A stretch of DNA of 64,000 nucleotides from Cladocopium goreaui (taxonomy: Eukaryota > Sar > Dinophyceae > Suessiales > Symbiodiniaceae). Position numbers and translations under genes: made by a program. This document shows, in pieces, positions 46,606 through 63,880 of this stretch. The notes under the pieces are model-generated. The model did no database searches, had not been told where the DNA came from, and worked only from the letters and a program-made list of their open reading frames with translations. Every line of letters starts with the position of its first letter. Position 1 is the first letter of the stretch. The stretch lies in the NCBI GenBank assembly GCA_947184155.2, contig CAMXCT020000321.1, positions 204,001 through 268,000 of the forward strand. Reading direction: 5' to 3'.

Positions 46606-46837
46606 GAGGCAACCTTAGTACACGCTAAGCTCTCGGCGGGACAGCCCATTGAGAAACCAGGTATTAACGGAGCCATGGGCCCGATCTGTTATGCCTAAGC
46701 TGGCACTCGCACACAAAGCCAACTGTGGCTCACAACTGCTGGAGAGATCTGGGTTGGTTGGAGCCAGGCATGTGTCGCATGAGGAACCTAACAATTATAA
46801 ATGGGGAAGCTGCGTCTCCGGCTGCATACCAGTGCAC

Positions 46838-46856
46838 CTGTCACGTCCTTGGACAG
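46838..46856 (-). promoter_or_regulatory. Stem-loop element 1 (CAAGGACGU loop)
   Basis: Minus-strand CTGTCCAAGGACGTGACAG: 5-bp inner stem CUGUC/GACAG, 9-base loop. A 3x3 internal loop leads to a long outer stem (plus-strand arms 46825-46834 and 46860-46870, CATACCAGTG type with one bulged base). Confidence 0.75.
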
Positions 46857-47060
46857 ACACACTGGGTATGAACAGCTAATTGAAGTGGATGTGACAAATG
46901 AACCTATTGGACACGAAAGTCATCTTTCACACCATGATTGATGAAACAAAAACCAGCTAATGGGTGAAAACCCGGAGTGAAACACAAAAGAGAGAAGAGG
47001 AGGGGATAGGGGGGGTGGACACACGGAGGAAAGTGTGACAGTAGGGGGTTGAGCTGGGGA

Positions 47061-47434
47061 TCATGTCATACCTCTCGTGAAATGTTCAAGATGGTGTTTT
47101 TTGTCTGCTGTAATGGTATCATACCATGCATTGGTGAGCCCAAATGAAACTGGGTTCACTTCTTGCTGGGCAATAGCACGCTGATGAAGCGCTCTGAGCG
47201 CCCTTCGATGTTCGTCCAGATCCTCAGGAGGGACCCTCCTGCGGACTCGCCTATCAGGGAAATTTCGTTCCCGCAGGTTGGTTTGCAAGGCATGTTCCGC
47301 TATATAAACTGCTGGTTGCTGGAATAAAACTCGCTCCGCGAATCTGTCGAGATGGACTGTCCACTCAGCAAACATATGGTTGTGGGACAGTTGCTTCCTG
47401 AGACGCTTTGATGAAGGCTCCCATTCATATGCCA
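47061..47434 (-). CDS. C-terminal frame of the large unit, unknown
   Basis: About 124 codons ending at 47061. There is no ATG at the upstream end: the frame is open from a GTG and overlaps the last 45 codons of the preceding frame, shifted by -1. The overlapping end of the preceding frame (ISTDSRSEFYSSNQQFI) looks non-coding, while this one (ERNFPDRRVRRRVPPEDLDE then HRRALRALHQRAIAQQ) looks like real protein with a basic, helical character. The simplest reading is that the protein of 47300-48934 continues here through a frameshift, either programmed, a sequencing or assembly indel, or decay. No domain is recognised. Confidence 0.45.
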
Positions 47435-48934
47435 CAATAGTAAAAGACTGTAATTGGAAGGCCAGTCAAGTGGGCACAGTGTGGCTGTTTCTTTCCATTT
47501 TTCGGGGGTAAGTCCTTCTGGAGAGGGAATGATCACTTCCAGAGTGGTACGATTCGATCCGAGGGGTTGGAGACCTCGCATCATACATGGTTCAACGAGC
47601 CCTGCGGTGTACCCATTGATGAGCTCCTGGAAGCTTCCAGCCATTTGAAAGTCTTCATCCACCCCCTGGTGAAAACCAGGCAAATTTTTAGCAACAAATT
47701 TGACTGCTTGGAGCAGCTGTTTTTCTCCTTCCACGGGAGTCTCGTCACAGGAACGTTTCGGGCACGTGAGGTTGATTTCTTGAGGTTTCTGTGCATTCTC
47801 AGGAGCATTCTCGAGGAGTTTGGGAGCAATTTTGCTGGCCCAACTAGCCGGAAACCCTGCCAAGAGGGCAGAGGCGCCACTCGTAAGGTCCACTAACCCA
47901 GTAGTGCGCCGATGCGGTCGATCTGTGACTAGGACTTTCACAGGGCCACTCGGCGCTCGACTCCGATTCACTTCAGAGCTCTCGCGCGCTGAGCCAATGA
48001 GTTCAGACAGGATGGGCCGAAACCAGTAAGTGGCATACAAAAGGCATTCAGTTTCTGGAGTCACCATGGATTCAGCCAATCTCATCAACGAGCTCATCGC
48101 CTGGGCGAGCTTCTCTGCCAATCGAATTGTGAGAGCCCTAGCTGTTTGATTAAGGACATCTTCCACCTCCTTGGCACCTTGCCCGCGCAACCACAGTTCA
48201 CCCGCCACACTCAGCAAGACGCGCGCAAACTTTTCTTGGATGGCAATCAACGACAAGGTCAGTCTCGCCTGGAGCCACAGCGGCGGGAGAATGCCAAGGG
48301 TTTCTGGTATGCAGAATGGGGTTCCGTCAGGTTGGATATTGTCAATTAACATTGCCAGCTTATCAGCTGCGCTCCAGATCTCGTCCTCCGAGGGATCTTC
48401 AGCGGCTTCAGGTATGGGTGGACACCATGAGATGGTAGGATCTTCTGGATCACTTTCTCCATCGGTAGAGGCTGCTTCTTCATCCGAGGAGGGGTCGCTC
48501 ACTGTGTCTCTTGCACCCTCCGGGCTTGCTAGTTTCATCGTGCCTGGATCAAATTGGCGATCTAGTGTGGCCAAAAGCTCCGGTTGCAACCGATGAGCAT
48601 CAAAATAGTGGATACCAGGGATTACAACTAGCTGTCGATCCTGTATACCAACATGAAAGAAAACCTTGTGACCTCTATGTCGATGAACTAGGGCAGGTGA
48701 CCCATTGTAAGCTGCACACAGCCAGAGGGGAGATTTGTAACCATCAGCAGCGTAACCATATAAGTATTCACGATCAATTGAGCAGGGGAAAAATCCACTG
48801 GTCGTCAACACATGGTCACGTGTGCGGGGCTCTAGCGCTGCAAGGACATTGGGGGGAAGCCGTAGCCTGTCTCTGCATGCCACTACCAGCCGATATCGTC
48901 TCCACACTCGTGTGCCATTGGTGGTCACTATCAT
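47300..48934 (-). CDS. Unknown protein following the helicase frame
   Basis: 544 codons from ATG at 48934, which overlaps the TGA of the helicase frame as ATGA. Residues 1-130 are mixed alpha/beta (RLVVACRDRLRLPPNVLAAL; HRGHKVFFHVGIQDRQLVVI). A Ser/Asp/Glu-rich linker follows (about 145-185). Residues 200-330 are helical (LTLSLIAIQEKFARVLLSVA). A final basic and polar region includes PSGPVKVLVTDRPHRRTTGL and a Cys/Pro segment. The last 45 codons overlap the frame at 47061-47434 and look non-coding. No known family is recognised. Position and the absence of a leader stem-loop suggest it is the C-terminal part of, or is translated together with, the helicase unit. Confidence 0.6.
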   Translation of the reverse strand: MIVTTNGTRVWRRYRLVVACRDRLRLPPNVLAALEPRTRDHVLTTSGFFPCSIDREYLYGYAADGYKSPLWLCAAYNGSPALVHRHRGHKVFFHVGIQDRQLVVIPGIHYFDAHRLQPELLATLDRQFDPGTMKLASPEGARDTVSDPSSDEEAASTDGESDPEDPTISWCPPIPEAAEDPSEDEIWSAADKLAMLIDNIQPDGTPFCIPETLGILPPLWLQARLTLSLIAIQEKFARVLLSVAGELWLRGQGAKEVEDVLNQTARALTIRLAEKLAQAMSSLMRLAESMVTPETECLLYATYWFRPILSELIGSARESSEVNRSRAPSGPVKVLVTDRPHRRTTGLVDLTSGASALLAGFPASWASKIAPKLLENAPENAQKPQEINLTCPKRSCDETPVEGEKQLLQAVKFVAKNLPGFHQGVDEDFQMAGSFQELINGYTAGLVEPCMMRGLQPLGSNRTTLEVIIPSPEGLTPEKWKETATLCPLDWPSNYSLLLLWHMNGSLHQSVSGSNCPTTICLLSGQSISTDSRSEFYSSNQQFI

Positions 48935-51768
48935 GGCAATAGCAAGGGGCGGTTTATCTTGGGGAGTGAAGGGTACCGATAATCCCCAGTCCAGTATGGC
49001 ACATCTGTCGCTAGGGTCGTTTGTAGGCCATGGTACTGAATATCACGGCCTTTCAGCGTGAAGTACCCGTAATGGTAGACCCCTAGGGTCTGGGCCATTC
49101 CAAGCATGCCTGCCATATCAAGAGGCGAGACAATATAGGTATGGTCAATGGCTCTTGTCAGCGCTACAGTTGCTCGTCCATAGCAGTCCTCGCGCTCGTC
49201 TGCTGTTGAACCTCTCCGTCCTCCACTGAGAAAACCTTCCCCTGTTTGAACAATGACAGCAATGCGTGCTGTCGCTCCTGCAGCAGAGGAGGTGGTGGAA
49301 ACTCGCAGCCCACCGTACCACTCGGTCTGAAAGCCATGTTGCAGTAGCAACTTATGTACAGCCGTACGGTTGCACAAGACAAGCAGCTGCGAGGTCGCTC
49401 CCCGTTGCAAGTTACGATAATATTTCTTCAAGTAGGTACAAAAGGCGACCACATCCTCAACTGCAGACCTAAGATCCTTAGGTGCTTTCCACAATACTGT
49501 GCGGAAGCCTCCGACGGCTACAGTGGACTCATGTGGCACGAAATGGCCAATGTAGATGTGGTTGGACTCATGGAGGACTAGCTCCGGATATCGAACTGCA
49601 ACTATCGCTTGGTAGGTCAGCATTGAAACTCGTGAGCTGTTAGGGAGAATGATGCCCCAGCGGTGAGGACCACAGAGTCCAGCTGCGACAAGGGTCGTGG
49701 TGCTCTCAGGTACGCCAAACTCCTCTGGTGCTGTGGCAATCATCAAGACTGCGAGCACCGCTGCAATGAGGCTGCTGTGTGCATCCAACTGGCACGAAAT
49801 TCGGCAGTGGAACACCCGCCTGAGGGCAACAGGCAGCTCGTAATCCTGCGGAGTGGATGTCCATGGGCCACTGTGCGGCTTGTTGGCAAGTCTCAGCAGA
49901 CTGAAGAGCTCTGACTCCGGATCTTGGCTTGCATCAGGCCACAGCTGAGCTACAAGAGCTGCCATTCGTGCTGGTGGAAAATAGTCGCCTGACCTATCAA
50001 GTGCTCGAAGCCCCAATGGCCGTTGCAACAGTTTACGTCGATTGACTGCCGCTGCTCGGCCTTTGGACAGCCCTCCTGGAGTTTGCCTGTGGTCTTTAAT
50101 GAAGACAGTCAGCATTGGCTGTTGTATGGCAGCAAGAGCTGCAATCTCATGGTAATTGCCATACTGTTGACTTTCGTCCATGAAGGCAAGCCAGGTGCGA
50201 GAAATCCAATGGCCAAAAGTGGAGTAGCGCATCGCCATTTCCGCCGTAGCTGAGCCACCTGTTGCGACAAGGATATTCTTATGTGAGATGATTCGATTGC
50301 GGTCACTACATCGGACGTCAATTTTGGAGGCGTAAGCCTCTCCTTTACCCTCCTCCATGCGTCCAATTAGCCTGCCGAAATTCTCGATTGTCGGAGGCGC
50401 AAGATCACTCACTTGATCCGCCAGAGCTTTGGCAGCTACTGACCTATCAAGTGCTCGAAGCCCCAATGGCCGTTGCAACAGTTTACGTCGATTGACTGCC
50501 GCTGCTCGGCCTTTGGACAGCCCTCCTGGAGTTTGCCTGTGGTCTTTAATGAAGACAGTCAGCATTGGCTGTTGTATGGCAGCAAGAGCTGCAATCTCAT
50601 GGTAATTGCCATACTGTTGACTTTCGTCCATGAAGGCAAGCCAGGTGCGAGAAATCCAATGGCCAAAAGTGGAGTAGCGCATCGCCATTTCCGCCGTAGC
50701 TGAGCCACCTGTTGCGACAAGGATATTCTTATGTGAGATGATTCGATTGCGGTCACTACATCGGACGTCAATTTTGGAGGCGTAAGCCTCTCCTTTACCC
50801 TCCTCCATGCGTCCAATTAGCCTGCCGAAATTCTCGATTGTCGGAGGCGCAAGATCACTCACTTGATCCGCCAGAGCTTTGGCAGCTACATTCTCTTTAG
50901 TGTAGACGATTGCAACAAAATCATTTAGTTCGCAGCTTAAGGCAATGAGCAGGACCGCCAGGGACCGCGTTTTGCCAGCACCAAAGACCCCGGCAATACA
51001 TAAGTCAGATCTTCCAGTCATAATGGCCAGCAAGAGTGCAATTGAGACTGTCAAGACATGTCCCTCACCGTGTGCTGCTAGGGGAAGGAGATGTTCACGA
51101 TAGTAGCTGTCATGGGCCCCATCCATCAAGATCGCGGCTGGTGTCAAAAAGCGGCACAGAATTCTGACTAACGCATCAGTCAGTTGCATTTTGCGCTCGC
51201 TAGCCATCCGGCGAACAGGTATATGCGGCTGCACGATGCCCATTGCCAATGGTAGGCGCGACTGGTTGGCTTGTGCAAACACTAAGAGTTCATGGCGGCT
51301 GCGTGTGTCTCCTAGAAAGGCCAGCTCTTCCCAAACGACGGCCATGGACGGGTGGTCTTCAATGGATTTCAGCCAGTCCTGTGCAGGATCAAAATAACTC
51401 ATTGTTTTAAGATGCTGGTCCAAAAGTCGCCCACAAAAGGTCCGAGCAATAGGCAGAGAGACAATAACAAGCTCCAGCAACTTTGGAGCAATGCGCTTGA
51501 GCGCTCTTTGAACAAGGTTTTTGCTAGTTCCGCTCGACATCACCTTCTCATGTACCAATGCTATGACACAACGCTGCTGATTGTCTGGCAACTGGAATAT
51601 GCCCAATAGTGCTCTGCCTGCCATCACGTTCGCTTCCAAGTTGCCTAGGTTCCCAGCTTCACAGAGAGCACGCGGCGACAGCGCTGGCACGTCGGAAGGT
51701 GCACTAAATAACAGGAGTGGAGCACTATCAGTGTAGGTGGACGACATGAAATCCGGCATACGCCTCAT
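48931..51768 (-). CDS. SF1 (UPF1-like) helicase with an internal 150-residue duplication
   Basis: 945 residues from the first in-frame ATG (51768); the frame is open back to a TAG at 51831. Walker A is CIAGVFGAGKTRS (GAGKT at about 263-267). Motif Ia-like IVYTKENVAAKALAD follows, then motif II DESQ (381-384), a motif III-like IKDHRQTPGG (408-417), and near the end ATVALTRAIDHTYIVSP (866-882), the motif VI of UPF1-type SF1 helicases with its arginine. It should bind and unwind RNA or DNA using ATP. The block from motif Ia to motif III is repeated exactly (450 bp; plus strand 49989-50438 and 50439-50888), so two DESQ boxes follow one Walker A. This suggests a very recent duplication or an assembly error. 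It is in the same frame as the two preceding proteins. Confidence 0.75.
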   Translation of the reverse strand: MRRMPDFMSSTYTDSAPLLLFSAPSDVPALSPRALCEAGNLGNLEANVMAGRALLGIFQLPDNQQRCVIALVHEKVMSSGTSKNLVQRALKRIAPKLLELVIVSLPIARTFCGRLLDQHLKTMSYFDPAQDWLKSIEDHPSMAVVWEELAFLGDTRSRHELLVFAQANQSRLPLAMGIVQPHIPVRRMASERKMQLTDALVRILCRFLTPAAILMDGAHDSYYREHLLPLAAHGEGHVLTVSIALLLAIMTGRSDLCIAGVFGAGKTRSLAVLLIALSCELNDFVAIVYTKENVAAKALADQVSDLAPPTIENFGRLIGRMEEGKGEAYASKIDVRCSDRNRIISHKNILVATGGSATAEMAMRYSTFGHWISRTWLAFMDESQQYGNYHEIAALAAIQQPMLTVFIKDHRQTPGGLSKGRAAAVNRRKLLQRPLGLRALDRSVAAKALADQVSDLAPPTIENFGRLIGRMEEGKGEAYASKIDVRCSDRNRIISHKNILVATGGSATAEMAMRYSTFGHWISRTWLAFMDESQQYGNYHEIAALAAIQQPMLTVFIKDHRQTPGGLSKGRAAAVNRRKLLQRPLGLRALDRSGDYFPPARMAALVAQLWPDASQDPESELFSLLRLANKPHSGPWTSTPQDYELPVALRRVFHCRISCQLDAHSSLIAAVLAVLMIATAPEEFGVPESTTTLVAAGLCGPHRWGIILPNSSRVSMLTYQAIVAVRYPELVLHESNHIYIGHFVPHESTVAVGGFRTVLWKAPKDLRSAVEDVVAFCTYLKKYYRNLQRGATSQLLVLCNRTAVHKLLLQHGFQTEWYGGLRVSTTSSAAGATARIAVIVQTGEGFLSGGRRGSTADEREDCYGRATVALTRAIDHTYIVSPLDMAGMLGMAQTLGVYHYGYFTLKGRDIQYHGLQTTLATDVPYWTGDYRYPSLPKINRPLLLP
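49989..50888. repeat. Exact 450-bp in-frame tandem duplication
   Basis: Two units without any visible difference, 49989-50438 and 50439-50888, inside the helicase frame. The length is divisible by three, so the frame is kept. Confidence 0.9.
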
Positions 51769-51882
51769 ATTGATAGGTAACCTGAAGCCGTGTTCCAGTC
51801 TGTCCTCGCTTCTTCTGCCGAGCAAGTTCTACACTGACCCAAGGCTGGAGATGTTGGAGTTGTCGTCCCGCATGATAAGCGT

Positions 51883-53040
51883 CTAATTGCGGCAACACCA
51901 TGTCCAGGAGGAAAATGAGGTGCGTAAGGAAAAACCACGCAGGAATTCCGCCAGTAGGTTGCGAACTAGCACACCTCCCTCAGCATGGGACCCTCCCGGT
52001 GTGGGAATCATCGCAATCAGAGCTGCTTGCAGGTCAGCTTCCGTTTCAGGCTGGCCATCCCGGATATCCCGTCCGTCAACGGGCACTGTGTGCAGTTCAG
52101 TGTTCCCTTCTCCAGCTGCTTCTAACAGAGAACTTAGAGTTGTCTTGAGGTGTTCCGGAAGGTCAAAACTAACCCATGAAAGTACACGCAGCAAACCCTC
52201 GCAACGTACCCCATGGGGAATGACTTGCGGGATAGTGATTTGTAGTCTTTGGATTTCATGAACCCCTTCGTCAAGATCAATGAAGAGCAAATGGCCATAG
52301 GAGTGTTTAGCACGTCCACTCCAAGTGGGGTGCCCTTCTATCAGGACAATCTGATAGTTGAATTCTGTCAGAGAGTCAGGTTTCCACACGCAAAGCCGGT
52401 CCTCCAGGCAGTGCACCAGTGTGACTGTGCGCTCGCCAGTGGCAAGTCGCAGCATCTCTGGCGGCGTCGCAATCGCAGCAACTTTGGTGAGGCCAGGGAA
52501 CACAGCAAACGCACTCAGGATCTCGTGGACAGCAAGGCCTGTGTAGGACCCAGCCGAGAAACCATGCACGTTGACATCCCTGCCACCGCTTGTAGCCGCT
52601 GTGGGGACTAGCTGTGGAAAACATGACTTCAGAAATAAATGTTTGCCTTGCGGATGGTAGCAACGAAAGATTTGCATGATTGCTGTTGTCCAGGTCGGGT
52701 GTGGTGGCCTGACATGGACTGGCCTGATATTCGCAGCCTCAATTAGGCGAATCGCTCGCGTGAGCAGCAGCTGTTGATCCGCGAACTGTTCAGGGAGAAA
52801 ATCTCGCCACGCTGTCCATCCTTCTGCCGTGGAGAGTAGCTGATAGATCACATACTCATGCACAGTTTTGGTAAGGCCAAGCTGGATAATATGGTCTTCC
52901 CAGTTATCAGTCATCGCAAGCGATGGGCCATACACCTTGGTTTGCGCAAGATTTTGCAGAAAAATATCATATTCATGCTCGCCACTAAGTAGGCCACCCC
53001 CTAGTCCACTGCAATGCACTTCAAGGGGTCGGTCTTGCAT
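51883..53040 (-). CDS. Alpha/beta-hydrolase-like protein
   Basis: 385 residues from ATG at 53040. The nucleophile elbow VHGFSAGSYTG gives G-x-S-x-G with Ser162, preceded by a beta strand and followed by a helix. VTLVHCLEDRLCVW offers the acid (Asp214), and AKHSYGHLLF offers the histidine (His246 or His250). This order and spacing fit a serine hydrolase, perhaps an esterase, lipase or peptidase; the substrate is unknown. The N-terminal 140 residues are helical. The frame continues the one upstream: only TAG plus five codons separate it from the preceding protein. It is also in phase with the helicase after two more TAG codons (51883-51885 and 51829-51831). Confidence 0.6.
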   Translation of the reverse strand: MQDRPLEVHCSGLGGGLLSGEHEYDIFLQNLAQTKVYGPSLAMTDNWEDHIIQLGLTKTVHEYVIYQLLSTAEGWTAWRDFLPEQFADQQLLLTRAIRLIEAANIRPVHVRPPHPTWTTAIMQIFRCYHPQGKHLFLKSCFPQLVPTAATSGGRDVNVHGFSAGSYTGLAVHEILSAFAVFPGLTKVAAIATPPEMLRLATGERTVTLVHCLEDRLCVWKPDSLTEFNYQIVLIEGHPTWSGRAKHSYGHLLFIDLDEGVHEIQRLQITIPQVIPHGVRCEGLLRVLSWVSFDLPEHLKTTLSSLLEAAGEGNTELHTVPVDGRDIRDGQPETEADLQAALIAMIPTPGGSHAEGGVLVRNLLAEFLRGFSLRTSFSSWTWCCRN

Positions 53041-53055
53041 CGGGGCGTCATCTTG

Positions 53056-55077
53056 CTAGACGTCAGCGAGGGAAAATATCCAGGAGGCCCACTCTGCAGA
53101 GCCTGTGAGGGCTACGGGCAGCGCATCTGCGAGTTGCCCCCCAATGTAGTGTTGTTTGGACACTACCCCAATATCTATGGCCTGCTCGTTGACGGTGACT
53201 TCCCACTTAGCCATCTCTCTGAAGGGAAACGGAAGACCAAACGCGAGGGGAGTTGCCTGCTGTAGCGATGTACATGAAGGTGCGGATTGTTCCTTTCGGT
53301 GCCACAGGCCACACAACAATGTGAGTTGAGCTTGGGAGAGGGGAACAGGAGGCACTTTGGCATGCAGTCTCAGACCAACCACTGGAAGGAAATTGGGATG
53401 CAACCATTGGGGCTTCCATTCTTGTGTCCCAAAGAGAGCCGCAGCCAGCGGCAACCAGCCAAATTGGGCCAGCTCAGCGAGACTGCTGGGCATTCTTTTC
53501 TTGGCATTGGTGCCAAACCCATGCAGGATAACAGGCCGCATGTAATGTGGCTCAATCGTCATGGCTTGGTACATCTTGTCTCCAGGTAATACTCGTACGC
53601 TGACTTCACCCGGCAACAGGCTAAGGGTCGGAAGAGCTCCTTGCTCATATGCAGGCCGAGCCCATTTGTGGAAGTTGGGTTGTCTGCCTTGGTAGCCATC
53701 AAGGATTCTCCGTAGATGACCGTGGCGCGGCCAGACTCCAGAGGCTGGGACCGGAAAAGTGACTAAGCCCGACCACTGGCCCAACACACTCCACGCATGG
53801 CACCAATCTGCAGTGACCCGGGTGGACGTGCCAAGCAGAGGAGAGCCAAGTAATCCACTAGCGACTGCTTGCTCAACGTCAACAGGTGGATATGTAGTAG
53901 CAAGATAGGCTTCAACATGTCTATGATAGGCACGAGTAATATCATGGGCTATTTCATCAGAATCAGTATCCGAGTCCTCCAATACAGTGATGGGCACAGG
54001 GCTCTCATGACCTGACGCTAATACAATGACCAGGCCCGCATTAATTTCAGTGAATGCCTCGCTCACTAAGATGACTCCTTTGGGCCGACACTCAGCGGCA
54101 GTTTCATCCTCGGCTGCTTTGTCCTTCCGGGCAGGTTTGGTTGACCCAGCCGGTGAAGAGACATCGCTGCTGGACGACGCCCGACGAGACATGCGGGGAC
54201 TCGGGTCTGGGGAACCCCCGTAGTCAACCTCATCTGCCAGATCGACACCATAGGTAAGTGGCGGAGCTCGTAGCGGGTCAGCTGCTCGGACTGCAATATG
54301 GTCAGCACTATGTGATCTGGACAGTTTCGATGGTGGGCCAGGTTGCTGCATATCCCTGCCCGTGTCCACAGAGCGCGCACGTTTGTGCGATGATGCAATG
54401 GGACTTGGCAGCTTGCTTTTTGCAACTTTGCTTGGCGTAGCTGGGAGGGTTGGGTCAGTGCTTACTAGCCAAAGTTCTCGTATCTCAAAGAGGGTCACCG
54501 GCACACAATCGCTGTCAATCAGTGCAAAGTTGATGGTCGGAAAGAGGAATACACAAGCATCAAGGATGTATGTCCCAGCCCATGTCGGGTGTACCTTGTG
54601 AAGACCAGTGTCAGCCGAAATGTGGACAAAGACAACTGTAGTGAGTTCGCCATATGAACCGACATATCGTAGCCGTTCTTTCCACCAAGCAGCGACCATT
54701 GGCCAATGGCTGAGCCCAGGCACAGACTTGACCTTGTCGGATTGCAGATCCCGATTGTCCGTCACCAGATATACCGTGTGGTAGAACAGAAATGCTGAGC
54801 TCTGACTAACCAACCATCGGTACAACTTGTGCCAATCAGGTCCAGGTAAGGTTTCACGCCCGTCGACCATGGCAATTTCATAGTCATGCCAATCCGGTGC
54901 AGCTGTCTTCTTATGGGGGTCTCCGAATCGCCAGTGCTGCTCAATCGATACATTTAGCCCGTATTCCGTCGAAATGCTTTTGTGCTGTTCAATTGCGTAG
55001 AGCAAGTCAAAGAAACTAATATTAGGGTTCTTTTCATGCCAAAACTTCGCCACCTGTTCTCTGAAGAGCAGAGACAT
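53056..55077 (-). CDS. Glycosyltransferase-like protein
   Basis: 673 residues from ATG at 55077. The N-terminal 215 residues end with TINFALIDSDCVPVTLFEIR then ELW. The D-x-D (about 188-190) after a hydrophobic strand, followed by LFEIRELW, is the arrangement of GT-A fold glycosyltransferases (GT8-like), where the Asp pair binds metal and nucleotide sugar. A long Ser/Pro/Lys-rich, probably disordered linker follows (about 220-330), then a domain of about 330 residues with Trp-rich stretches (HAWSVLGQWSGLVTFPVPAS) that I do not recognise. The frame ends at TAG and resumes as the hydrolase. Four stem-loop elements precede it at 55153-55599. The assignment rests on one motif and is an inference. 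Confidence 0.5.
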   Translation of the reverse strand: MSLLFREQVAKFWHEKNPNISFFDLLYAIEQHKSISTEYGLNVSIEQHWRFGDPHKKTAAPDWHDYEIAMVDGRETLPGPDWHKLYRWLVSQSSAFLFYHTVYLVTDNRDLQSDKVKSVPGLSHWPMVAAWWKERLRYVGSYGELTTVVFVHISADTGLHKVHPTWAGTYILDACVFLFPTINFALIDSDCVPVTLFEIRELWLVSTDPTLPATPSKVAKSKLPSPIASSHKRARSVDTGRDMQQPGPPSKLSRSHSADHIAVRAADPLRAPPLTYGVDLADEVDYGGSPDPSPRMSRRASSSSDVSSPAGSTKPARKDKAAEDETAAECRPKGVILVSEAFTEINAGLVIVLASGHESPVPITVLEDSDTDSDEIAHDITRAYHRHVEAYLATTYPPVDVEQAVASGLLGSPLLGTSTRVTADWCHAWSVLGQWSGLVTFPVPASGVWPRHGHLRRILDGYQGRQPNFHKWARPAYEQGALPTLSLLPGEVSVRVLPGDKMYQAMTIEPHYMRPVILHGFGTNAKKRMPSSLAELAQFGWLPLAAALFGTQEWKPQWLHPNFLPVVGLRLHAKVPPVPLSQAQLTLLCGLWHRKEQSAPSCTSLQQATPLAFGLPFPFREMAKWEVTVNEQAIDIGVVSKQHYIGGQLADALPVALTGSAEWASWIFSLADV

Positions 55078-55496: not shown

Positions 55497-55514
55497 CTGA
55501 CAGTCTTTAGTCAG
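55497..55514 (-). promoter_or_regulatory. Stem-loop element 4
   Basis: CTGACTAAAGACTGTCAG with an 8-base loop. Outer stem CUGGA/UCCAG (plus-strand arms 55488-55492 and 55519-55523) across a 4x4 internal loop. Confidence 0.75.
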
Positions 55515-55580
55515 AGAATCCAGGCACGAAGAGAGAAAAAAGAAGAAAGGGAGAAGAGATGAAAGGAGGCGCTGATAACC

Positions 55581-55599
55581 CTCGCACGTCTTAGGCCAG
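55581..55599 (-). promoter_or_regulatory. Stem-loop element 5 (degenerate)
   Basis: CTGGCCTAAGACGTGCGAG: one mismatch in the inner stem. Outer stem CUGGU/AUCAG has a G.U pair possible only on the minus strand. Confidence 0.6.
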
Positions 55600-56051
55600 A
55601 GAAACCAGACGTTAAATGGAAGGAAACGAAAAGCAGGAAGAAGTGGAATGAGCAATGATGAGTACAATCGGAATGTGGTCACAATGCACGAGAGATCAAT
55701 ATGTACTTTGTGGAGTGAAGAGGAAACTATAGCAATACCCTTCGCCCAATAATCGGGAAGCTGGCAATTTCTATCCCGTAACGTAATGAGGAAGAACTGT
55801 ATGGCCCTTTCCTGAAACTGAGCTAAGGTAGCAAGACTGTCTACGACTGTCTCTTGAGCCGATGGGATCGCAGAGAGCAGCATCTCTCTGTGACAGAGCA
55901 CACGATGCTAGTACATTACACATATCATGATGCAAATGGAAAATGATGATGTGTACATTCTTTCGTGTGTATTAAGATAACAGGCAGGCCGGAATTCCTT
56001 TTTGTCTGATGCTCACATCCTACTGGGCAGATATTCAACTGGAGCTCACTA
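55600..56051 (-). other. Leader or spacer between ankyrin gene and glycosyltransferase-like gene
   Basis: A minus-strand open frame (55461-55901) runs through stem-loops 4 and 5 and its pyrimidine-rich surroundings. Only the part LAQFQERAIQFFLITLRDRN then CQLPDYWAKGIAI looks at all coding, so I do not call a gene. Confidence 0.35.
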
Positions 56052-57171
56052 TTAGTCGACTTGGTGTAGGAAAGTTTCTCCCTGGTTGAGCTCCGGGGGT
56101 GTCTGCAGCTCAGGGCGTAGTTGCACTGGTAAAGACAGGCCGTCGAGTATTTTGCGCCATCGATATGTGGTGAAATTCGTCTGTCGTGACTGTTGGTCAA
56201 TGGTGTGGTGGTACTTCCACACTATTTGTTTCATGATAGCGATGGCCCTATCTGTCAACGCAGTGAGTTTGATTCGCACCTGAGAAGGTTGTTCACTTCT
56301 CACCACATCGGAGGAGCTACTGGCACGCTGTAACATGTCAATGACTGTGTCATCGTTGCTCTGCTCCGCAGCAGCTTGTACAGCGTTGAAAACTTCTTTA
56401 CGGGCAGGATAACCATACCATTCCAGGGAATGGCAGAGCACTGAGGCTATCGTGATCTCCTGCCACGGGTCCGCTTGTGCGTCTAGGAGCAGCTGTACAT
56501 TAGTCCTATGTCGATGGAGGACAGCAAGAAAAAGTGAGGGGAGCGCTCCTTTCACGGAAATCACCGAGGCACCAGCTTCAAGCAAAATTTGCACATGCTG
56601 CGAGCTGCCCAACTCAACTGCTAACTCCAACATGGTGGTAGGTTTTGTTTTGGGCGGAATGATATTGGGGTCAGCATGGGCTTGTAGCAGTAGGTAAGTT
56701 AGTGTGGCTCCATGTCGAGGGAAACAGTGGCCAGCATCAGGCTGGTAAGCATATGGATCAGCAGAATGGTCTCGAAGGATAGCTGAAGCTATTAAAGTGC
56801 TAATATGCCTTTCCTCCGTCGTCATGTCTATAAGGCCTACGCCCTTACCAAGGAGATAGCTTACATCAATCACATCCTTGTGACAAATGGCAGTGAGCAG
56901 GTCGCGGTATTGCTGCGCCGACCGGGACTTGTAACAACTGCATTATATAGCAGAATGTTGTCTCATTCGCATCTGTATCGAACTGAACAGCCCTCAAAGG
57001 CGATTGGATTACTGACGAGCTGGCTGCATATAGGACAATTTGAAAAGGTGAGTCCAACTCGAGCACCTTAGCCGTCTGTTTCATAATATCCCATCCGAGG
57101 GTTGTCCGTTCCACGACGTCCATCGTCAGGGCTGCTTCCCCACGGATTCCATGGCAGACACGGAGTCGCAT
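56052..57171 (-). CDS. Ubiquitin-like plus ankyrin-repeat protein (frameshifted)
   Basis: ATG at 57171 opens MRLRVCHGIRGEAALTMDVV and continues to ANETTFCYI, about 75 residues with the strand-helix-strand pattern of a ubiquitin-like fold. That frame then drifts and stops at TGA (56866). A second frame, open from 56942, carries on with QQYRDLLTAICHKDVIDVSY, followed by ankyrin units such as TLTYLLLQAHADPNI, TMLELAVELGSSQHVQILLE then AGAS, and LAVLHRHRTNVQLLLDAQAD, ending TAA at 56052. The two-domain arrangement is common in dinoflagellate ankyrin proteins, which mediate protein contacts. The shift (-1 or +2) must lie between 56942 and about 56912. I cannot tell programmed frameshifting from an indel. 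Stem-loop 6 ends 34 nt before the ATG. Confidence 0.6.
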
Positions 57172-57205
57172 ACTTACCCCTGGAAATAAGTAAGCGGAGG
57201 CAACC

Positions 57206-57223
57206 CTGACAGTCTTTAGCCAG
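57206..57223 (-). promoter_or_regulatory. Stem-loop element 6
   Basis: CTGGCTAAAGACTGTCAG, 8-base loop, inner stem with a minus-strand-only G.U. Outer stem GUGGC/GCCUC has one mismatch. Exactly 34 nt separate it from the ATG at 57171. Confidence 0.75.
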
Positions 57224-57770
57224 AGAGGCCACGCACTTATATTTGTAACCGCGAAGTTTAAAGATGCCTGAGTAGGGTGCAGAGGGGTGCATAAGGAAAT
57301 GTAAAAAGGATAGCAACATGTCAGACCATCTGAATTTGAGCCGGTATTGCTTAGCAGATTACGAGAATTCTCAAGGGCATGCAAGCTGAAACAAAGAAAA
57401 CAGAATAGCCAGTCAGAAGCAAACGGCCCGTGCTGTATAGCATGTCTAGGATCCCATAGTTCGAAAGATCGATCTAGTGGGTATGTGACTAGACTTGTAT
57501 CAGGAGAGCCTCGGTGAGGGTCAGGAATCCGATACTGTTATTTGAACCAAAAAATGCTGCGGGCCTTCATTCAAGCAGCGTGACAAGGGGTCCCATGCAA
57601 AACAAAAAGCTCCTCTACTCAACTTCAACTTTTCTGTTGGCAAAGTTAGCAACTAGTGCACTTGCCCTCTTTTCATGTCCTGCATCCTCAGAATGAGGAA
57701 AAAGCCACAGTCTTCGCTGCAGTTCCTTCGGACTATAGTCAGCATGCAGATATCAAAGGTCTAATGTCAC

Positions 57771-58934
57771 TCAGGTTTGACTTCCCTCTGTAGCTGGATC
57801 TGTGCACGATTCTGTCGGAGCAGCTGAAACAGCTTGAACCAACTCTTCTTCTTTAGCAGTGGCTTGTTCATGCTCGATCTGTACCAAATTGCCCACAACT
57901 TCCTCCATTTGAGTGGCTGCCTCTATTACGAAGGTTAATAGAGTGCGTGCATACGCCAGCTGTTTAGCGGCCCGGGCCCGACCCTCTGTTGCAGGTCCTA
58001 GCGGCGGTACCTCACCATGCCGCCACATTGTGACTTTGCTTGTTGTATGCACTGGCATGGAGGGTGATTGCGGTTCCGATCGACCAGCAAAGGTCGCATT
58101 GAGTTTCTGCAAGTCGCGTACACTGTAATTCCCAGTCGGGTCGAGCTGTTGGGTACTTGTCTGTCCCGTGGGGTCTGTGTACTTTCTTTTACCATGCAAG
58201 TTCTCCTCTCTTCGCGGCATAGACTTTATGGCACTTTTGTGTTCAAAGCCAGTCTTGAAAGTTTCGTGAGCTGCTGAACTACAGCGGGATTCTCTGTTCA
58301 GGGCAATCAGTTTGTCCATCACCTTGCCTGAGCTATTGGTCATTTCGGTGAAGGGCCAGCAGGGCGTGCGATTCGCCAGGATATTGTGCTCATGCATCCG
58401 GTCAACATAGAAATGATTCAATTTCTCATTGTGTCGGTGGTTCGTGATGACTGCAAATCTTCTGGGACTGACCCAGACCCATAAATCCTCCTGAAAGGAC
58501 TCTGTGGCGTAGAAGGGCCAGATCTGCCGGCCTCCCATTTCCACAAAAGAGAAATTGGTATAGACGTCATCACTGGCTTCGGTATCTATATGACAAAAGT
58601 CATGTGACAGCTTGGCGGAACTGGACACAGGATAAGTCCAGTCCAATGGGCTCTTCATGTCATCATTGAGAATAATGTTCCAACATTCGCCATTGATGCA
58701 CATTCTATATTCGTAGAAAGACCATGCATGGAGCTGCTTGGCGTGCTCATAGCAGCCCTGCTGCTGATAGACCTGGATGCCGTCGTATTCCATAATGTAG
58801 GACTCTTTGTATTCAAGTCGCTGGTGTTCACTGTGAGCCTCAGTATCATTACTGCCACCAGCTGGTCCCGCTTGGTCAGGCCCAGTCAGTGGGCCTGCTT
58901 TTAGCGTGACCTTGTCACCGATCCACTGCGCCAT
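57771..58934 (-). CDS. Unknown protein, paralogue of 61570-62380
   Basis: 387 residues from ATG at 58934 (the frame is open further up from a TTG, but that part is the pyrimidine-rich leader). It shares with the frame at 61570-62380 the sequence C-x-N-G-E-x-W-N-I, the run PFYATE/PFAAE, the motif RRFAVITN/RRFAIVAK and HEHNILANR/HAYNILGNR, then S-R-(C/I)-x-S-A-x-H-E. This conserved core (about residues 45-245) is rich in Trp, Tyr and Cys. The C-terminal 140 residues are polar with a final helix (AYARTLLTFVIEAATQMEEV) and an acidic tail. I do not recognise the family. Stem-loop 7 lies 229 nt upstream, with a long C/T-rich tract between. Confidence 0.55.
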   Translation of the reverse strand: MAQWIGDKVTLKAGPLTGPDQAGPAGGSNDTEAHSEHQRLEYKESYIMEYDGIQVYQQQGCYEHAKQLHAWSFYEYRMCINGECWNIILNDDMKSPLDWTYPVSSSAKLSHDFCHIDTEASDDVYTNFSFVEMGGRQIWPFYATESFQEDLWVWVSPRRFAVITNHRHNEKLNHFYVDRMHEHNILANRTPCWPFTEMTNSSGKVMDKLIALNRESRCSSAAHETFKTGFEHKSAIKSMPRREENLHGKRKYTDPTGQTSTQQLDPTGNYSVRDLQKLNATFAGRSEPQSPSMPVHTTSKVTMWRHGEVPPLGPATEGRARAAKQLAYARTLLTFVIEAATQMEEVVGNLVQIEHEQATAKEEELVQAVSAAPTESCTDPATEGSQT

Positions 58935-59163
58935 GACTGCCGCCCAAGGTTGAAGAGGGGTATGGCAGAAGCAGGAGCGGTGTACAGGAAGAGAGAGGAG
59001 AGGAAGCAATCACAGGCGAGTGAGAGGGACGGACCAAAAGGTAGACACGAGAGGCCAACAATTAGGGACAGCAGCGGCGGTAGCAATAGGGGGCAGCCAA
59101 AGAGAGAGGGGAAGAAGATGACGGCAAAAGAGAGGGAAGGCAAAATAGAGAAAGGGTACTCCC

Positions 59164-59182
59164 CTGACACGTCCTTGGTCAG
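59164..59182 (-). promoter_or_regulatory. Stem-loop element 7
   Basis: CTGACCAAGGACGTGTCAG in which the outer stem ACUCC/GGAGU joins the inner stem through a U.G pair (C-A on the plus strand), giving 11 consecutive pairs. GGG/CCC can add three more beyond a short gap. Confidence 0.8.
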
Positions 59183-59429
59183 AGGAGTGGGAGCCCTGTA
59201 CGTGGGACGGTAATTTGAGCCACACGTGTGCGATATGGTACATTCCAACTGATGCCGTATCTCTACCTGTAGACATGGAGCAAGGTGGGCACGTGTACTC
59301 ATGAATGCACATGCTGATCATGCAAGCTGCCGAGGCGGAAAGACAACTCCTTTTTCCAGGAATTTCTGAGATGACGATATCACACCGAAGGATGGTAAGT
59401 ATAGTCCCTGCTTCACGCCAGTTGATTCA

Positions 59430-59825
59430 TCAAAAAGAAGCTAGACAGTGAGTAAGTTCAGTGTAACTGTGTTGTACAAAAGCTGTGGCTATGTACATTG
59501 TAGATGAATCTGTGAGGCCTATTCCTTCACGGGACAGCTGTTCAAGCAGCCCATCATCAAGGCGGTCCACCGTCTCTTCCTTGATCGAAAAAACGCAAGG
59601 AGTCCGATGCATGAGCCCATTGGATATGAGAAGATAGTCTTGAATTTGTTGCTCTTCAATTCGGATTACTGCGTGTGTAGCAGTGTGTGCGATCCAAGTC
59701 TCAGCATCAGGCATTCGTAGGTGCAAAATTAACAGTTCGATGTTGTCTCCTATCACTGCAGACGGAGGTCTTGCTTCGAGCGAGGTTGCTCCGATAACTC
59801 CATCCACAACGTCTAAGTGCTTCAT
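59430..59825 (-). CDS. Unknown small protein
   Basis: 131 residues from ATG at 59825 to TGA. Reads KHLDVVDGVIGATSLEARPP, IELLILHLRMPDAETWIAHT, then DYLLISNGLMHRTPCVFSIK and ends in a helix. The alternation of hydrophobic strands and helices suggests a compact alpha/beta domain. No family is recognised. It has no stem-loop of its own; it follows the 248-residue frame by 242 nt, so it may be a downstream cistron or a broken continuation. Confidence 0.45.
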   Translation of the reverse strand: MKHLDVVDGVIGATSLEARPPSAVIGDNIELLILHLRMPDAETWIAHTATHAVIRIEEQQIQDYLLISNGLMHRTPCVFSIKEETVDRLDDGLLEQLSREGIGLTDSSTMYIATAFVQHSYTELTHCLASF

Positions 59826-60067
59826 TCCGTCACCATGGCAGTTCCGTATGCGCTGTCTGACTAGGTCTCCATGTCTAGAGTAATTGTTTGGAAACAGCTA
59901 GTGATCTCCACAGCTAAATACTAAGTAGTATTCGTTGAATTTGTGTTGTGGGGTATCAACTCTTGAGCAAACGATGGCTCACGTAGATAATGTGTGGAAC
60001 AGTACCCATGCAAAATGCACCGAATTGTTATGCGGCAACTCTAAAATTCCAGCCATTTCAATTTTTG

Positions 60068-60814
60068 TTATAGGAGGACGAGCTCTGGCGCACTCAACTC
60101 TCTGTCGGGACTGCGGATAGCCGCAGTGGGCGGGTCCTGCACAAGAAGACTAAATCTTATGGCGGGAGCCATCATTCTGGCCACTTCCGCTAGGAGTGTG
60201 TTCGGTTGGAGTCTTTGCATTGTTGAATTAGTTTCAACTGCTGTGGTGGTCCAGATGCGGAGGTTCGGTGGCACCCCTGACCTTAATAGCATGAAAGCAA
60301 CTTCCACTACTGTATCAACTGCTTGCCGCATGGTTCTGCGGTCCAGAAATCCGCCCAGGGTAGCAGTGATATGTATTGTCTGAATGATTAACCGAAAGGG
60401 TCGGGCATCTATTGGCACTGGGGAAAGTCCCGCCTGATCGGTCATGCCTCCATCAGCAGCTGGGACTAAGTATAGGTGGTTGACCCACACACCTCGTGTG
60501 GACAGGCGACTAAAACCTGCCACTCGTACTATGTCCTCGTAAGATGCTGCTAGTGCCGTCAAGAGATGCTGTGTGATGCGCTGTCCATCCACTTCAACTT
60601 GCTGGAGGTCAGCTTCTAATGTGTTATATATCAACTGCAGGCCATGTGCTTCTTCTGGAAAAAAGGTGACACATCCACTCTGCACTAGCCGTACTGTGCG
60701 CCTGAGGTCTCGTACAGCCACCATAAGGTCTTGCGCTGCTTCCAAGCTATATAGGATCATCTTTACTGGCATAGGGAACTGGTGTTCTTCTCCCCGGAGT
60801 CGCACATAATCCAT
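60068..60814 (-). CDS. Unknown 248-residue protein
   Basis: ATG at 60814 to TAA. The N-terminal half is helical (KMILYSLEAAQDLMVAVRDL, LIYNTLEADLQQVEVDGQRI). The middle is rich in beta-type sequence (TRGVWVNHLYLVPAADGGMT; FRLIIQTIHITATLGGFLD). The end is helical again with NTLLAEVARMMAPAIRFSLL. There is no signal peptide and no clear membrane segment. No known family. Stem-loop 8 lies 118 nt upstream of the ATG with CT-rich sequence between. Confidence 0.5.
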   Translation of the reverse strand: MDYVRLRGEEHQFPMPVKMILYSLEAAQDLMVAVRDLRRTVRLVQSGCVTFFPEEAHGLQLIYNTLEADLQQVEVDGQRITQHLLTALAASYEDIVRVAGFSRLSTRGVWVNHLYLVPAADGGMTDQAGLSPVPIDARPFRLIIQTIHITATLGGFLDRRTMRQAVDTVVEVAFMLLRSGVPPNLRIWTTTAVETNSTMQRLQPNTLLAEVARMMAPAIRFSLLVQDPPTAAIRSPDRELSAPELVLL

Positions 60815-60932
60815 GGCAGTACAGGTAAAGCGAGAGGAGGCCCACTACACACAAACATTACTGTCTTGCATTAGTCGTGAGAGTAAGAGTGAGATGGCAG
60901 TTAGCTGATGTTGTTGTCAGTCAGTTGCAATC

Positions 60933-60951
60933 CCGACACGTCCTTGGTCGG
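60933..60951 (-). promoter_or_regulatory. Stem-loop element 8
   Basis: CCGACCAAGGACGTGTCGG: inner stem CCGAC/GUCGG, 4x4 internal loop, outer stem GUUGC/GCAAC. The inner stem differs from CUGAC/GUCAG by a compensatory pair change. Confidence 0.85.
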
Positions 60952-61081
60952 AAAGGCAACGTGACCTACATGGTTACTTTATTTATGGCAGGCATGCTGA
61001 ATATTGGATCTTGTCGGTCATGCCTCAGTGATAACAATCTCTCTTAGGGTATCTCAGCCATTCGGATGGAGGAGATATTAG

Positions 61082-61569: not shown

Positions 61570-62380
61570 TCAAAGGTCGGTGAAGATGGTTGCATAAGCT
61601 TCACTGAGGGCATACCAATTTTGCTGTAGTCGGTAAAGTGCTCGGTTAGCTTCTTGGACAAGGTTATTATGTTGCATTTGCAGCACTTGTATACTTTCAC
61701 TGAGTTGGGAGATCCTATCCGCTTCATCTGCATGATTAGGAAACTGGCCTGCTATCGCAGCTTGGCACTCTTGCGAGAGCCGGAAATCAAAGCACGGTCG
61801 ATCATCTTCATGGACAGCACTGTTGATTCGTGATTGCTCACTCAGTGCAATTCCTTCTGGGGTTGGCTGCAGTGTTTCAATGCGATTACCTAAGATATTG
61901 TAAGCATGCATAATTTCTGCAATAATAGCACATTGTTGGGCATTCTTTGCAACTATTGCAAAGCGTCTGGAGTTGGCCCAGCATGCATATCCGTTGTGTC
62001 GCACCTCTGCAGCGAAGGGATAGAAACCACCATATCCTGTGATATTCAACCAAGCCTGCAGGTAAATCTCGTCACACTCTCGAGGAATGACCTTATGGAA
62101 TCCATGGGGCAGTGTAGCCCCCATCATTACTGTCGTCTCCTCCGGAAGCCATGACTCATCTTCAGCCCATAGGGATGTTCCATTTCTCACCATTGAGCCA
62201 TGTGCATACTTCCATCAGGTTAAATGCCCTACATTCTATGTTGACATTGTGACATAGCCTATGGATAGGATACTTGCCGCGATGTAGATTTGTCAGCATA
62301 TTTGGAGTGCTCTGAATGGTTTCGACGTTATAACCTTTCCAGTGGTAGTTCCTCAGAAATGTCATGAGCGCAGTCGACAT
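61570..62380 (-). CDS. Unknown protein, frameshifted paralogue of 57771-58934
   Basis: ATG at 62380 (34 nt after stem-loop 9) starts STALMTFLRNYHWKGYNVET and runs to WLNGEKWNIPMG and a TGA (62162-62164). Alignment with the paralogue continues without a gap in the +1 frame (EDESWLPEETTVMMGATLPH, RRFAIVAKNAQQ, MHAYNILGNRIETLQP), which ends at TGA 61570. The +1 frame also has its own ATG at 62193. So the full product needs a +1 shift at GGC-UGA, or the gene carries a one-base indel. The last 60 residues are a heptad-like helix (IQVLQMQHNNLVQEANRALY). Product size would be about 260 residues. Family not recognised. Confidence 0.5.
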
Positions 62381-62414
62381 GGCTACGAGGGTGGAGCGTT
62401 TGCCAGGTGCAGTC

Positions 62415-62433
62415 CCGACACGTCCTTGGTCGG
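62415..62433 (-). promoter_or_regulatory. Stem-loop element 9
   Basis: CCGACCAAGGACGTGTCGG with outer stem GGUGC/GCACC across a 4x4 internal loop; compared with element 8 the outer stem has changed two pairs, both compensated. Exactly 34 nt before the ATG at 62380. Confidence 0.85.
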
Positions 62434-62847
62434 AAAAGCACCGTGGCTTGGCAGCTGAGGGAAATCTGTACTATGCATGTCAGTGTCAGGCAACAAGGTA
62501 GCAACATTGAAGGTAGCAATCATTTGGTCAACTTGTGTTGTCTGAACTATGTCTGAGCCGATAGACTACATGTACTGGCAAGGTGTTGTGAAATTCGTTA
62601 CCATGTATTAAAGTCCAGTAGCTGCCGGCATGTAAAGCTTTAGTGTAACATGTCACTCAAGCTGCATACACTCGTGTTCTTATTTTCTCGATAGCCGAAC
62701 AAAATTGCGCTATACGTGGTATAACTACATTGGGGCTGGCCAGTCACTCCTAGCTCAGGCAAGGTGTATAACGGGAAGTTTGGAGGCACATCGTCATCTT
62801 GCTTCTTTGGTAGCGCTGGCACTTCTCAGCCTTTGGTATTACCATTG

Positions 62848-63231
62848 TTAAGGTGAGGGCGGGAAGCAGTTCTCCCTCACATCATGGAGTTCTTCGCCTA
62901 CATCTGAACTGATCTCAATGCCATCGGGATACACCACTGGGACTAACAGCTCGTTTTGAGCGTATTCCATTTCACGTACAATGTGGGCTTTGTAGTCAGC
63001 GATCATGTGAAGTAAAGTGACTTGCGCTTGAATGTTCTCATCAAGCTTTTCTGGCATTGGTATGTCAACCCAGAATACTTCCTTGGCCTGTTGCTTCGCC
63101 TTGAGCAAATGGAAGTGGGCAGACTGCAAATTGTCCAATAAGGTACAGCAAGCTGTGTACTTATTGATGACTCGTTTAATATGTAGAAGTCGTTCATCAC
63201 AGCTTGATGCATCCGATGTAGCATACGCCAT
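62848..63231 (-). CDS. Unknown helical protein
   Basis: 127 residues from ATG at 63231 to TAA. Reads AYATSDASSCDERLLHIKRV, TLLDNLQSAHFHLLKAKQQA, then VTLLHMIADYKAHIVREMEY and ends with an acidic segment and CFPPSP. The two long amphipathic helices suggest a coiled coil or helical bundle, as a partner-binding or structural protein might have. No family is recognised. Stem-loop 10 lies 135 nt upstream. Confidence 0.45.
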   Translation of the reverse strand: MAYATSDASSCDERLLHIKRVINKYTACCTLLDNLQSAHFHLLKAKQQAKEVFWVDIPMPEKLDENIQAQVTLLHMIADYKAHIVREMEYAQNELLVPVVYPDGIEISSDVGEELHDVRENCFPPSP

Positions 63232-63366
63232 GGCAGGCAATCCGGCAACTGAAATTGTGTAATCTCTTTTTAATTCAACATATTAGCACTGTTCAAGTGG
63301 GGGGGGAAGTGAGACCTTTGAATTCCGAGACCAATGGAGTCCAATGACTGTTTATGTGAGGGACCC

Positions 63367-63385
63367 CTGTCACGTCCTTGGACAG
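63367..63385 (-). promoter_or_regulatory. Stem-loop element 10
   Basis: CTGTCCAAGGACGTGACAG: inner stem CUGUC/GACAG, the same compensated inversion (A-U to U-A) as element 1. Outer stem AGGG/CCCU across a 5x4 internal loop. Confidence 0.75.
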
Positions 63386-63880
63386 AAGTACCCTGTGCAA
63401 TCTTAGTAAGTGAAAACGATATATACTTATGAAGGTCCATTGCATAGTTAGGGAGGAAATTACCCCATGGACGACTAAGGGAGAATTTAGCAAAAAATCA
63501 TGAGGTAGACGGAAAATTCACAAGCATGGTCAGTTGCTGCACAATACCGTTACTGAGGAGCCGAACAGTGGGATATGCATAGAAGCCTCGACATTCAGTA
63601 CCACCGATCAAATACGTAGTTAGAGTGTGGCTCATGGAACAAGGGAGCACAGACATGAATACGACAGGCACAATCGGAGTAAACCAGATAGAGAGAAACA
63701 ACAGGAGGGAGGTCAATCTATAGAGTGCCAGGTATAATCTTGCTACCTAGTTTTGAAGCCAGAGAGGGAGAGAGGAGTAGTGCTCAACTGGCAAGAAAAA
63801 CCACTCAGTCGACCAATCATTTTGTCTTCGCACTGATGACTCTTTTGTGGCACAAACACGATATGCAGTAATAAGTCAGC
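63386..63880. other. Spacer or leader, no gene supported
   Basis: The minus strand holds short hydrophobic frames (63498-63716, opening at TTG) that I cannot support. A CT-rich stretch at about 63660-63790 resembles the other leaders. Confidence 0.35.

Follow-up and report, generated by a model that had tools for sequence, protein, structure and literature searches.

Introduction

Spliced-leader addition is general in dinoflagellates, and the iron-responsive element and the phage coat-protein operators are protein-binding hairpins of mRNA leaders. The described element nearest to the one reported here is SymbioLINE-Dnmt of Symbiodinium, for which the consulted parts of the original paper report target-site duplications (TSDs), conserved 5′ and 3′ untranslated regions (UTRs), a methyltransferase-type open reading frame (ORF) upstream of an ORF with endonuclease, reverse transcriptase (RT) and RNase H, transcription biased to ORF2 and the 3′ UTR, and no poly(A) tail (de Mendoza et al., 2018, PMC5890265). 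Dinoflagellate retrogenes are genomic copies with one or more leader relics derived from reverse-transcribed trans-spliced RNA, and the RT of long interspersed nuclear elements (LINEs) recognises 3′ stem-loops, according to the consulted parts of these papers (PMC12014239, PMC2488372; PMC5135761). Here we analyze 64,000 nucleotides of the Cladocopium goreaui genome (GCA_947184155.2, contig CAMXCT020000321.1, positions 204,001 to 268,000, hereafter “the window”), and describe a family of RNA hairpins which very probably belongs to a giant, spliced-leader-bearing LINE-type retrotransposon present in many copies. The window holds the 3′ half of one copy; the full gene order is a 5′ array of 7-9 hairpins, ORF1, ORF2, ORF3 to ORF8, and a 3′ UTR with one hairpin.

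Compared with SymbioLINE-Dnmt, as far as the consulted text describes it, the coding core looks similar, although the methyltransferase and endonuclease/RNase H matches found here lie below cut-off; the 5′ and 3′ UTRs are conserved in both, and TSDs were seen here in two of five copies. The six 3′ ends read here carry 9-13 A. Our element differs in that it spans 32-34 kb, with seven further selected ORFs, a spliced-leader 5′ end and a hairpin family. The words “helicase”, “ankyrin”, “splice leader” and “stem-loop” are absent from the main text of PMC5890265, and accessory ORFs are unmentioned in its consulted parts. Leader relics are shared with the dinoflagellate retrogenes; those derive from host mRNAs in the consulted accounts, whereas here the retrotransposon itself bears nested relics. 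Both LINE 3′ stem-loops and our hairpins are structured RNA within a LINE, but the former, as described in the consulted text, lie in the 3′ UTR, while here there are ~17-19 per element, mostly before ORFs. The likeness to the iron-responsive element and phage operators consists of a fixed loop, free stems, a bulge at fixed distance and occurrence in the leaders of several genes; the loop and geometry are different, the same hairpin is reiterated along one RNA, and the binding protein is here hypothetical. No description of this hairpin, or of a LINE of this size, was found in the titles and abstract openings of the literature matches listed, with most subscription papers and bioRxiv beyond reach of the search.

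A Conserved RNA Hairpin Family

The sequence-only reading of the window had proposed ten stem-loops, all in one orientation, and each of them was located on the minus strand where it had been placed:

63354-63398, minus strand: hairpin before ORF3, 122 nt upstream of the ATG
62402-62446, minus strand: hairpin before ORF4, 21 nt upstream of the ATG
60920-60964, minus strand: hairpin before ORF5, 105 nt upstream of the ATG
59151-59195, minus strand: hairpin before ORF6, 216 nt upstream of the ATG
57193-57236, minus strand: hairpin before ORF7, 8-nt loop, 21 nt upstream of an ATG common to the three copies shown
55568-55612, minus strand: first of four tandem ORF8 hairpins, with one G.G mismatch that is paired in five other copies compared
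55484-55527, minus strand: second of the four, 8-nt loop, covariance model match
55313-55357, minus strand: third of the four, covariance model match
55140-55184, minus strand: fourth of the four, 62 nt upstream of the ATG, identical in five other copies compared
46825-46869, minus strand: 3′ UTR hairpin, ~190 nt past the ORF8 stop (measured in copy C1236)

The ten sequences align without inner gaps, save one loop base in two copies, and a covariance model made from them recovers, as it must, all ten in the window with E no higher than 2.1e-10; the next match has E = 2.1. A single register provides 12 pairs, to which RNAalifold independently adds 4 more past one bulged 5′ base. From the loop outward, 7 bp are followed by mismatched pyrimidines (2x2 in most copies), then by 5 bp, a single bulged 5′ base and a last 3-4 bp. 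The inner stem had been read as 5 bp closed by a 4x4 internal loop; that loop in fact holds a near-constant U.G (pair 13-33, U.G in 65 of the 67 distinct rows that the window and further copies supply) and a pair that covaries freely (12-34, all six standard types, 64 of 65 cells paired), which extend the inner stem to 7 bp and leave only the 2x2 mismatches. The loop has 9 nt, mostly (C/U)AA(A/G)GACGU, or 8 nt in two window copies; in the computed fold its first C pairs with the G and the U is bulged out, so that six bases remain, AARGAC.

The observation that the outer stem changes in sequence and still pairs was borne out: 68 of 80 pairs are formed against a null mean of 41.9, and the inner stem forms 69 of 70 against 59.3, neither value being reached in 20000 re-dealings of whole 3′ arms among the ten copies (0/20000 for each). 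Two-sided changes occur in 11 of the 15 pairs, and 91.3% of cells are paired (ten copies, 15 pairs) vs. 67.3% after shuffling and 29-50% when the partner is slid. The window and 19 fetched loci gave 103 model matches and 51 distinct rows with 90.5% of cells paired, and a wider set including 5′ arrays and another subfamily gave 67 distinct rows with 86.6%, both alignments having been fitted to the structure and hence leaning towards it. In these larger sets shuffles are exceeded by the percentage paired and the covariation score (0/500), but not by two cruder measures, how many pairs change on both sides and how many pair types occur.

The minus strand had been named as both the coding and the folding strand, and this agrees with our data: in 11 of 12 hairpins the sense strand gives the better fold of the two strands, with z of -2.5 or lower in 7/12 on the sense strand and 2/12 on the complement (-3.6 and -3.5). 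Orthologous hairpins differ from the window copy at 104/2060 sites and flanking non-coding DNA at 3526/21741, counts which omit the near-identical copies C1236 and C257 and whose comparisons share branches and are thus not independent. A motif scan of six element copies, some of them nearly identical, returned 66 sense and 0 antisense matches. Because of the covariation, the low divergence relative to flanks and this strand bias, the structure is under selection as RNA. The hairpins are a conserved family of cis-acting RNA structures, whose sense strand is the minus strand of the window, and an RNA-level structure kept by selection is thereby shown in the leaders of a multi-gene retrotransposon.

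Genome-Wide Occurrence and Rejected Identities

In the 1.17 Gb assembly containing the window, the loop-plus-stem pattern CNGNCNWARGACGTGNCNG has 3775 matches vs. 47 for the reversed pattern, and both free positions pair in all of the 100 matches listed (the first by contig number). The loop CAAGGACGU, named as conserved by the sequence-only reading, occurs in 10 of these 100; CAAAGACGU, with 85, is the commonest form. The exact 15-mer GACCAAGGACGTGTC occurs 381 times and its reversal 0 times. Chance origin of the hairpins was rejected on the shuffles, the re-dealing of arms, the genome counts against the reversed pattern and the pairing in the listed matches.

The statement that no described family is known with this loop agrees with Rfam, which gave 0 matches across the window, and at lax threshold the region 55100-55650 returned only mir-7383 (E 2.1, 16 bits vs. 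88), so that a known Rfam family is rejected with nothing above gathering threshold. CsrA/RsmE binding hairpins carry GGA in the loop, which is missing from 90 of the 100 listed genome matches, and a site of that kind was discarded. A narrower pattern matched at least 117 prokaryotic stretches; as only 36 of the 80 listed (one match each) pair at both positions, these matches are taken as chance and the presence of the same motif in prokaryotes was set aside. The exact hairpin strings are absent from the viral contigs.

The Host Element

The earlier proposal that the hairpins sit in gene units was correct as to the units, but these are not host genes: they form the 3′ half of the multi-copy element. 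Homology between copies, 87-99% identical, extends past the window, and the total length is ~32-34 kb (33.6 kb in C1236, 34.3 kb in C890, 31.6 kb in C257, assuming that both ends belong to one copy across unfetched stretches of 2.2, 2.6 and 12.5 kb, respectively). The C648 copy measures 30.1 kb and has an N gap where C1236 carries 5.0 kb. At the 3′ side, six copies end at an identical base after CCGGAGG and 9-13 A, and in the window this corresponds to:

44471-47299, minus strand: 3′ UTR and common retrotransposon 3′ end, ending in CCGGAGG + A9, the same end in six copies

At the 5′ side, two copies share a common start at a spliced-leader relic. The string joining the leader to the element start has 121 matches in the genome (control 0), although 5 among the 100 listed are a second match within one 5′ end. 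In 14 element 5′ ends that were read, CCGTAGC is exact in 12 and has one change in 2, the ends having been chosen by a pattern that already demands the last ten leader bases; several of them show two or three nested leaders. The leader sequence at the 5′ ends also marks the host as a dinoflagellate.

TSDs were found in two of the five copies tested, of 18 bp in C648 and 21 bp in the 5′-truncated C1191, the flanks of different copies sharing at most 8 bp; none was seen in C1236, C257 or C890, where an 11-bp match includes part of the leader. At the window copy, the 3′ flank begins with 18 bases that are identical to the 5′ flank of a copy at C2212. The C2212 stretch at the expected distance showed no match to the 3′ part of the element, and the flank identity therefore does not establish a TSD for the window copy.

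The features expected of a LINE that the element shows comprise an RT ORF (RVT_1, E 9.5e-10 and 1.2e-9 in two copies, above cut-off), a common 3′ end with 5′-truncated copies (C1191, C43 and C26), and a lack of long terminal repeats, no blastn match of at least 60 bp being found between the 5′ 6 kb of the C648 stretch and its 3′ end (one copy). The nine ORFs are unlike the one or two that LINEs typically carry; since the consulted text says “typically”, ORF number is not treated as LINE-defining (PMC2881922). A polinton-like or giant-virus insertion was rejected: 24 ORF pieces, 6 from outside the element, were scanned against Pfam, without the 5′-most part of ORF1, and none matched a capsid or a DNA polymerase B. 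Furthermore, viral contigs contain no relative of the proteins P0001 or P0002, and phages no relative of P0001.

Two observations concern related copies. Window positions 42617-43715 (minus strand) hold a diverged relative of the element’s 3′ end, ~70% identical over 330 bp, with a short terminal A run. In C257 (L020, 8464-9998) the copy abuts another in opposite orientation at the equivalent of window position 55785, as if inserted, without a visible TSD.

Genes of the Element

ORF1 contains a methyltransferase-like stretch (PF00145, E 0.081, below cut-off) with an SPCQ motif recognised by eye, and is separated from ORF2 by 15 nt without an intervening hairpin in two copies. Besides the RT, ORF2 shows a weak endonuclease match (Exo_endo_phos_2, E 0.18) and, in C648, an RNase H match below cut-off (RVT_3, E 0.0017). 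The accessory ORFs in the window are:

62848-63231, minus strand: ORF3, 127 aa, no Pfam match, omega 0.10-0.16
61570-62380, minus strand: ORF4 region, 269 aa in C1236, frame interrupted in the window copy, omega 0.09-0.23
60068-60814, minus strand: ORF5, 248 aa, omega 0.08-0.10 between clearly distinct copies
59430-59825, minus strand: orf131, 131 aa, no hairpin of its own, omega 0.07-0.20
57771-58934, minus strand: ORF6, 387 aa, omega 0.15-0.23
56052-57170, minus strand: ORF7 region, ankyrin repeats (Ank_2, 5.6e-6), 372 aa in C648 and C1191, interrupted in the window copy
47300-55077, minus strand: ORF8 region, P-loop helicase-like (AAA_19, E 0.0028, below cut-off), omega 0.09-0.11 in four pairs

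Purifying selection acts on the accessory ORFs. Pairwise omega, determined for ORF3 to ORF8 and orf131 (pairs of identical copies give no value), is 0.07-0.24 where frames are intact and copies differ, and the frame-broken ORF7 of C890 gives 0.41, 0.60 and 0.86 in three comparisons. ORF4, ORF7 and ORF8 are interrupted in the window copy, ORF8 being one 2525-aa ORF in C1236 and four pieces in the window. ORF4 (269-311 aa across copies) and ORF6 are paralogues, 28% identical. The sole Pfam match of ORF5 is Gene66 (E 0.014, below cut-off), and the AlphaFold2 model of ORF6, with a mean predicted local distance difference test score of 35.6, gave no usable fold. NCBIfam returned one match for six proteins, far below cut-off, and solved structures, searched with P0001 alone, one meaningless match (E 0.51).

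Some of these genes are locally duplicated. Around 49990-50890 (minus strand), within the ORF 48931-51768, ~450 bp of the helicase region form a tandem pair in the window copy (a ~140-aa repeat in P0001) and are single in the eight other loci covering the region. The copies C890, C1191, C324, C648 and C67 (L011, L016, L017, L022, L025) carry a tandem duplication of ~1.5 kb that comprises the ORF4 unit and its hairpin.

Placement of the Hairpins

In the copies read, at least one hairpin lies in the gap before ORF1 and in each gap before ORF3 to ORF8, and none was found in the long ORF1-ORF2 and ORF8 stretches. The 5′ UTR arrays comprise 9 hairpins in C648 and 7 each in C80 and C113, with a hairpin-to-ATG distance of ~86 nt for ORF1. 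Copy C4, from another subfamily, shows this succession of hairpin types again, as judged from the hairpins alone. ORFs of at least 200 aa from the first ATG cover 56-73% of the six-copy stretches, and 7 of the 66 motif matches fall inside one; by coordinates, each of those 7 belongs to the leader of ORF4, of the ORF4 tandem duplicate or of ORF7, in copies where the frame is open upstream of the conserved ATG.

Downstream of the hairpins, an AG stands 2-17 nt upstream of the ATG in the window leaders of ORF3, ORF4, ORF6 and ORF8. The ORF6 leader is 77% pyrimidine with a single AG two bases before the ATG, that of ORF4 also has its AG two bases upstream, and that of ORF3 reads TTTCAG in the five copies shown. 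The region after the hairpin thus looks splice-acceptor-like in some genes, not all, judging from sequence features; the dinoflagellate acceptor is an AG without simple consensus features in the consulted account (PMC2488372). Degenerate spliced-leader-like strings in four stretches number 8 sense and 0 antisense, one being a true 5′ end and one, in the window, lying outside the element. Such strings stand upstream of orf131 (59980-60010, minus strand) and upstream of the ORF8 hairpins (55850-55885, minus strand). As orf131 lacks a hairpin and has a leader-like string before it, capture of leader-tagged mRNA copies may be the origin of some cargo genes.

How the Hairpins May Act

Taken as a whole, the best explanation we can offer is a retrotransposon hairpin family with factor-bound expression of each cistron, and we consider its chances of being right to be about even. 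The mechanism taken alone is put forward tentatively, and is open to considerable doubt: each leader hairpin would be bound by a factor, and each cistron of a single ~33 kb RNA would be expressed separately. A loop-binding protein, perhaps encoded by the element, would recognise the loop bases AARGAC, presented on the paired stem, and the bound hairpin would let each cistron be its own expression unit. The simplest route would be spliced-leader addition or ribosome entry directed to the start codon 21-216 nt downstream, and the repetition of one hairpin would place all units under one factor. The presence of a small hairpin before most genes suggests that the element carries its own control code, by which a long multi-gene RNA is expressed or packaged.

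Several results weigh against per-cistron expression. The hairpin at 46838 lies in the 3′ UTR and precedes no ORF, and ORF2 and orf131 have none of their own. The earlier idea that the hairpins mark gene units is supported; against a pure transcript-start mark stand the same cases. Leaders are richer in pyrimidines than the 150 nt before the hairpin in only three of six genes (ORF4, 5 and 6; not ORF3, 7 and 8), upstream ATGs occur within three leaders, and in C890 and C1191 the stretch from hairpin to ATG before ORF5 is free of AG. Partial copies consisting of leader and ORF would be an expected by-product if the leader were added at ORFs, and no spliced leader is present at the junctions of the two 5′-truncated copies ending near ORF8 (C43 and C26); the C34 and C107 copies continue upstream through the fetched stretch. 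With regard to conservation, the hairpins at 57206 and 55581 reach the variability of non-coding DNA. Of the 30 best-conserved 40-nt windows outside masked ORFs, only 4 include part of a hairpin; many others fall in the 3′ UTR, and two in ORF4 sequence missed by the mask.

A serious rival, though in itself unlikely, is packaging or cis-recognition, in which the element’s RNA-binding protein or RT would bind the dispersed hairpins and mark the full-length RNA for ribonucleoprotein assembly and retrotransposition, the ORFs being hairpin-free only as coding constraint leaves no room. Hairpins also occur in the 5′ UTR array and in the 3′ UTR, their number per element is high (~17-19), and, with the spliced leader added ahead of the 5′ array, they stay in the full-length RNA; moreover, a fixed loop on free stems is typical of a protein-binding site. 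Nonetheless, all seven hairpin-bearing gaps lead into the start of an ORF, which packaging does not need, and the long ORF1-ORF2 and ORF8 stretches are hairpin-free, though coding constraint could explain the latter point.

Processing punctuation is quite improbable. tRNAs separate the cistrons of polycistronic transcripts in some organelles, and a host or element nuclease could likewise cut at the hairpins; their position between accessory ORFs and also past the last ORF fits a mark between genes better than one before each gene, but retrotransposition needs the genomic RNA, and cuts among the 7-9 hairpins of the 5′ array would destroy it. A DNA-level element (a palindromic protein-binding site or internal promoter) folding as RNA only by accident is very improbable, for although the inner part is palindromic, the complement also folds well in two copies and tandem 5′ arrays resemble the promoter monomers of some LINEs, the many G.U pairs (as at 13-33) would turn into A.C in the complement, pairing in the outer stem survives its sequence changes, and the sense strand is nearly always the better folder.

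Returning to factor-bound expression of each cistron, an extended form of it, which we regard as rather unlikely, would make the element a non-LTR retrotransposon turned genome-sized, polycistronic, capped RNA replicon: its 5′ end would come from host trans-splicing, it would carry seven selected accessory genes including a helicase-like one, and one reiterated hairpin, read by its own RNA-binding protein, would serve to express each cistron and to mark the full-length RNA. If true, such a LINE, 32-34 kb long, rich in selected genes and with a hairpin for each, would have arrived independently at a long multi-gene RNA replicon, and the thousands of hairpins in one genome would be a natural experiment on cistron separation in dinoflagellates.

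Other Features of the Window

Two further ORFs were observed outside the element. Positions 24377-30826 (minus strand) contain a 2149-aa ORF with below-cut-off gag, zinc-knuckle and aspartyl-protease matches, probably another retrotransposon, and positions 6514-7203 (minus strand) hold an uninterrupted glutathione S-transferase ORF of 229 aa.

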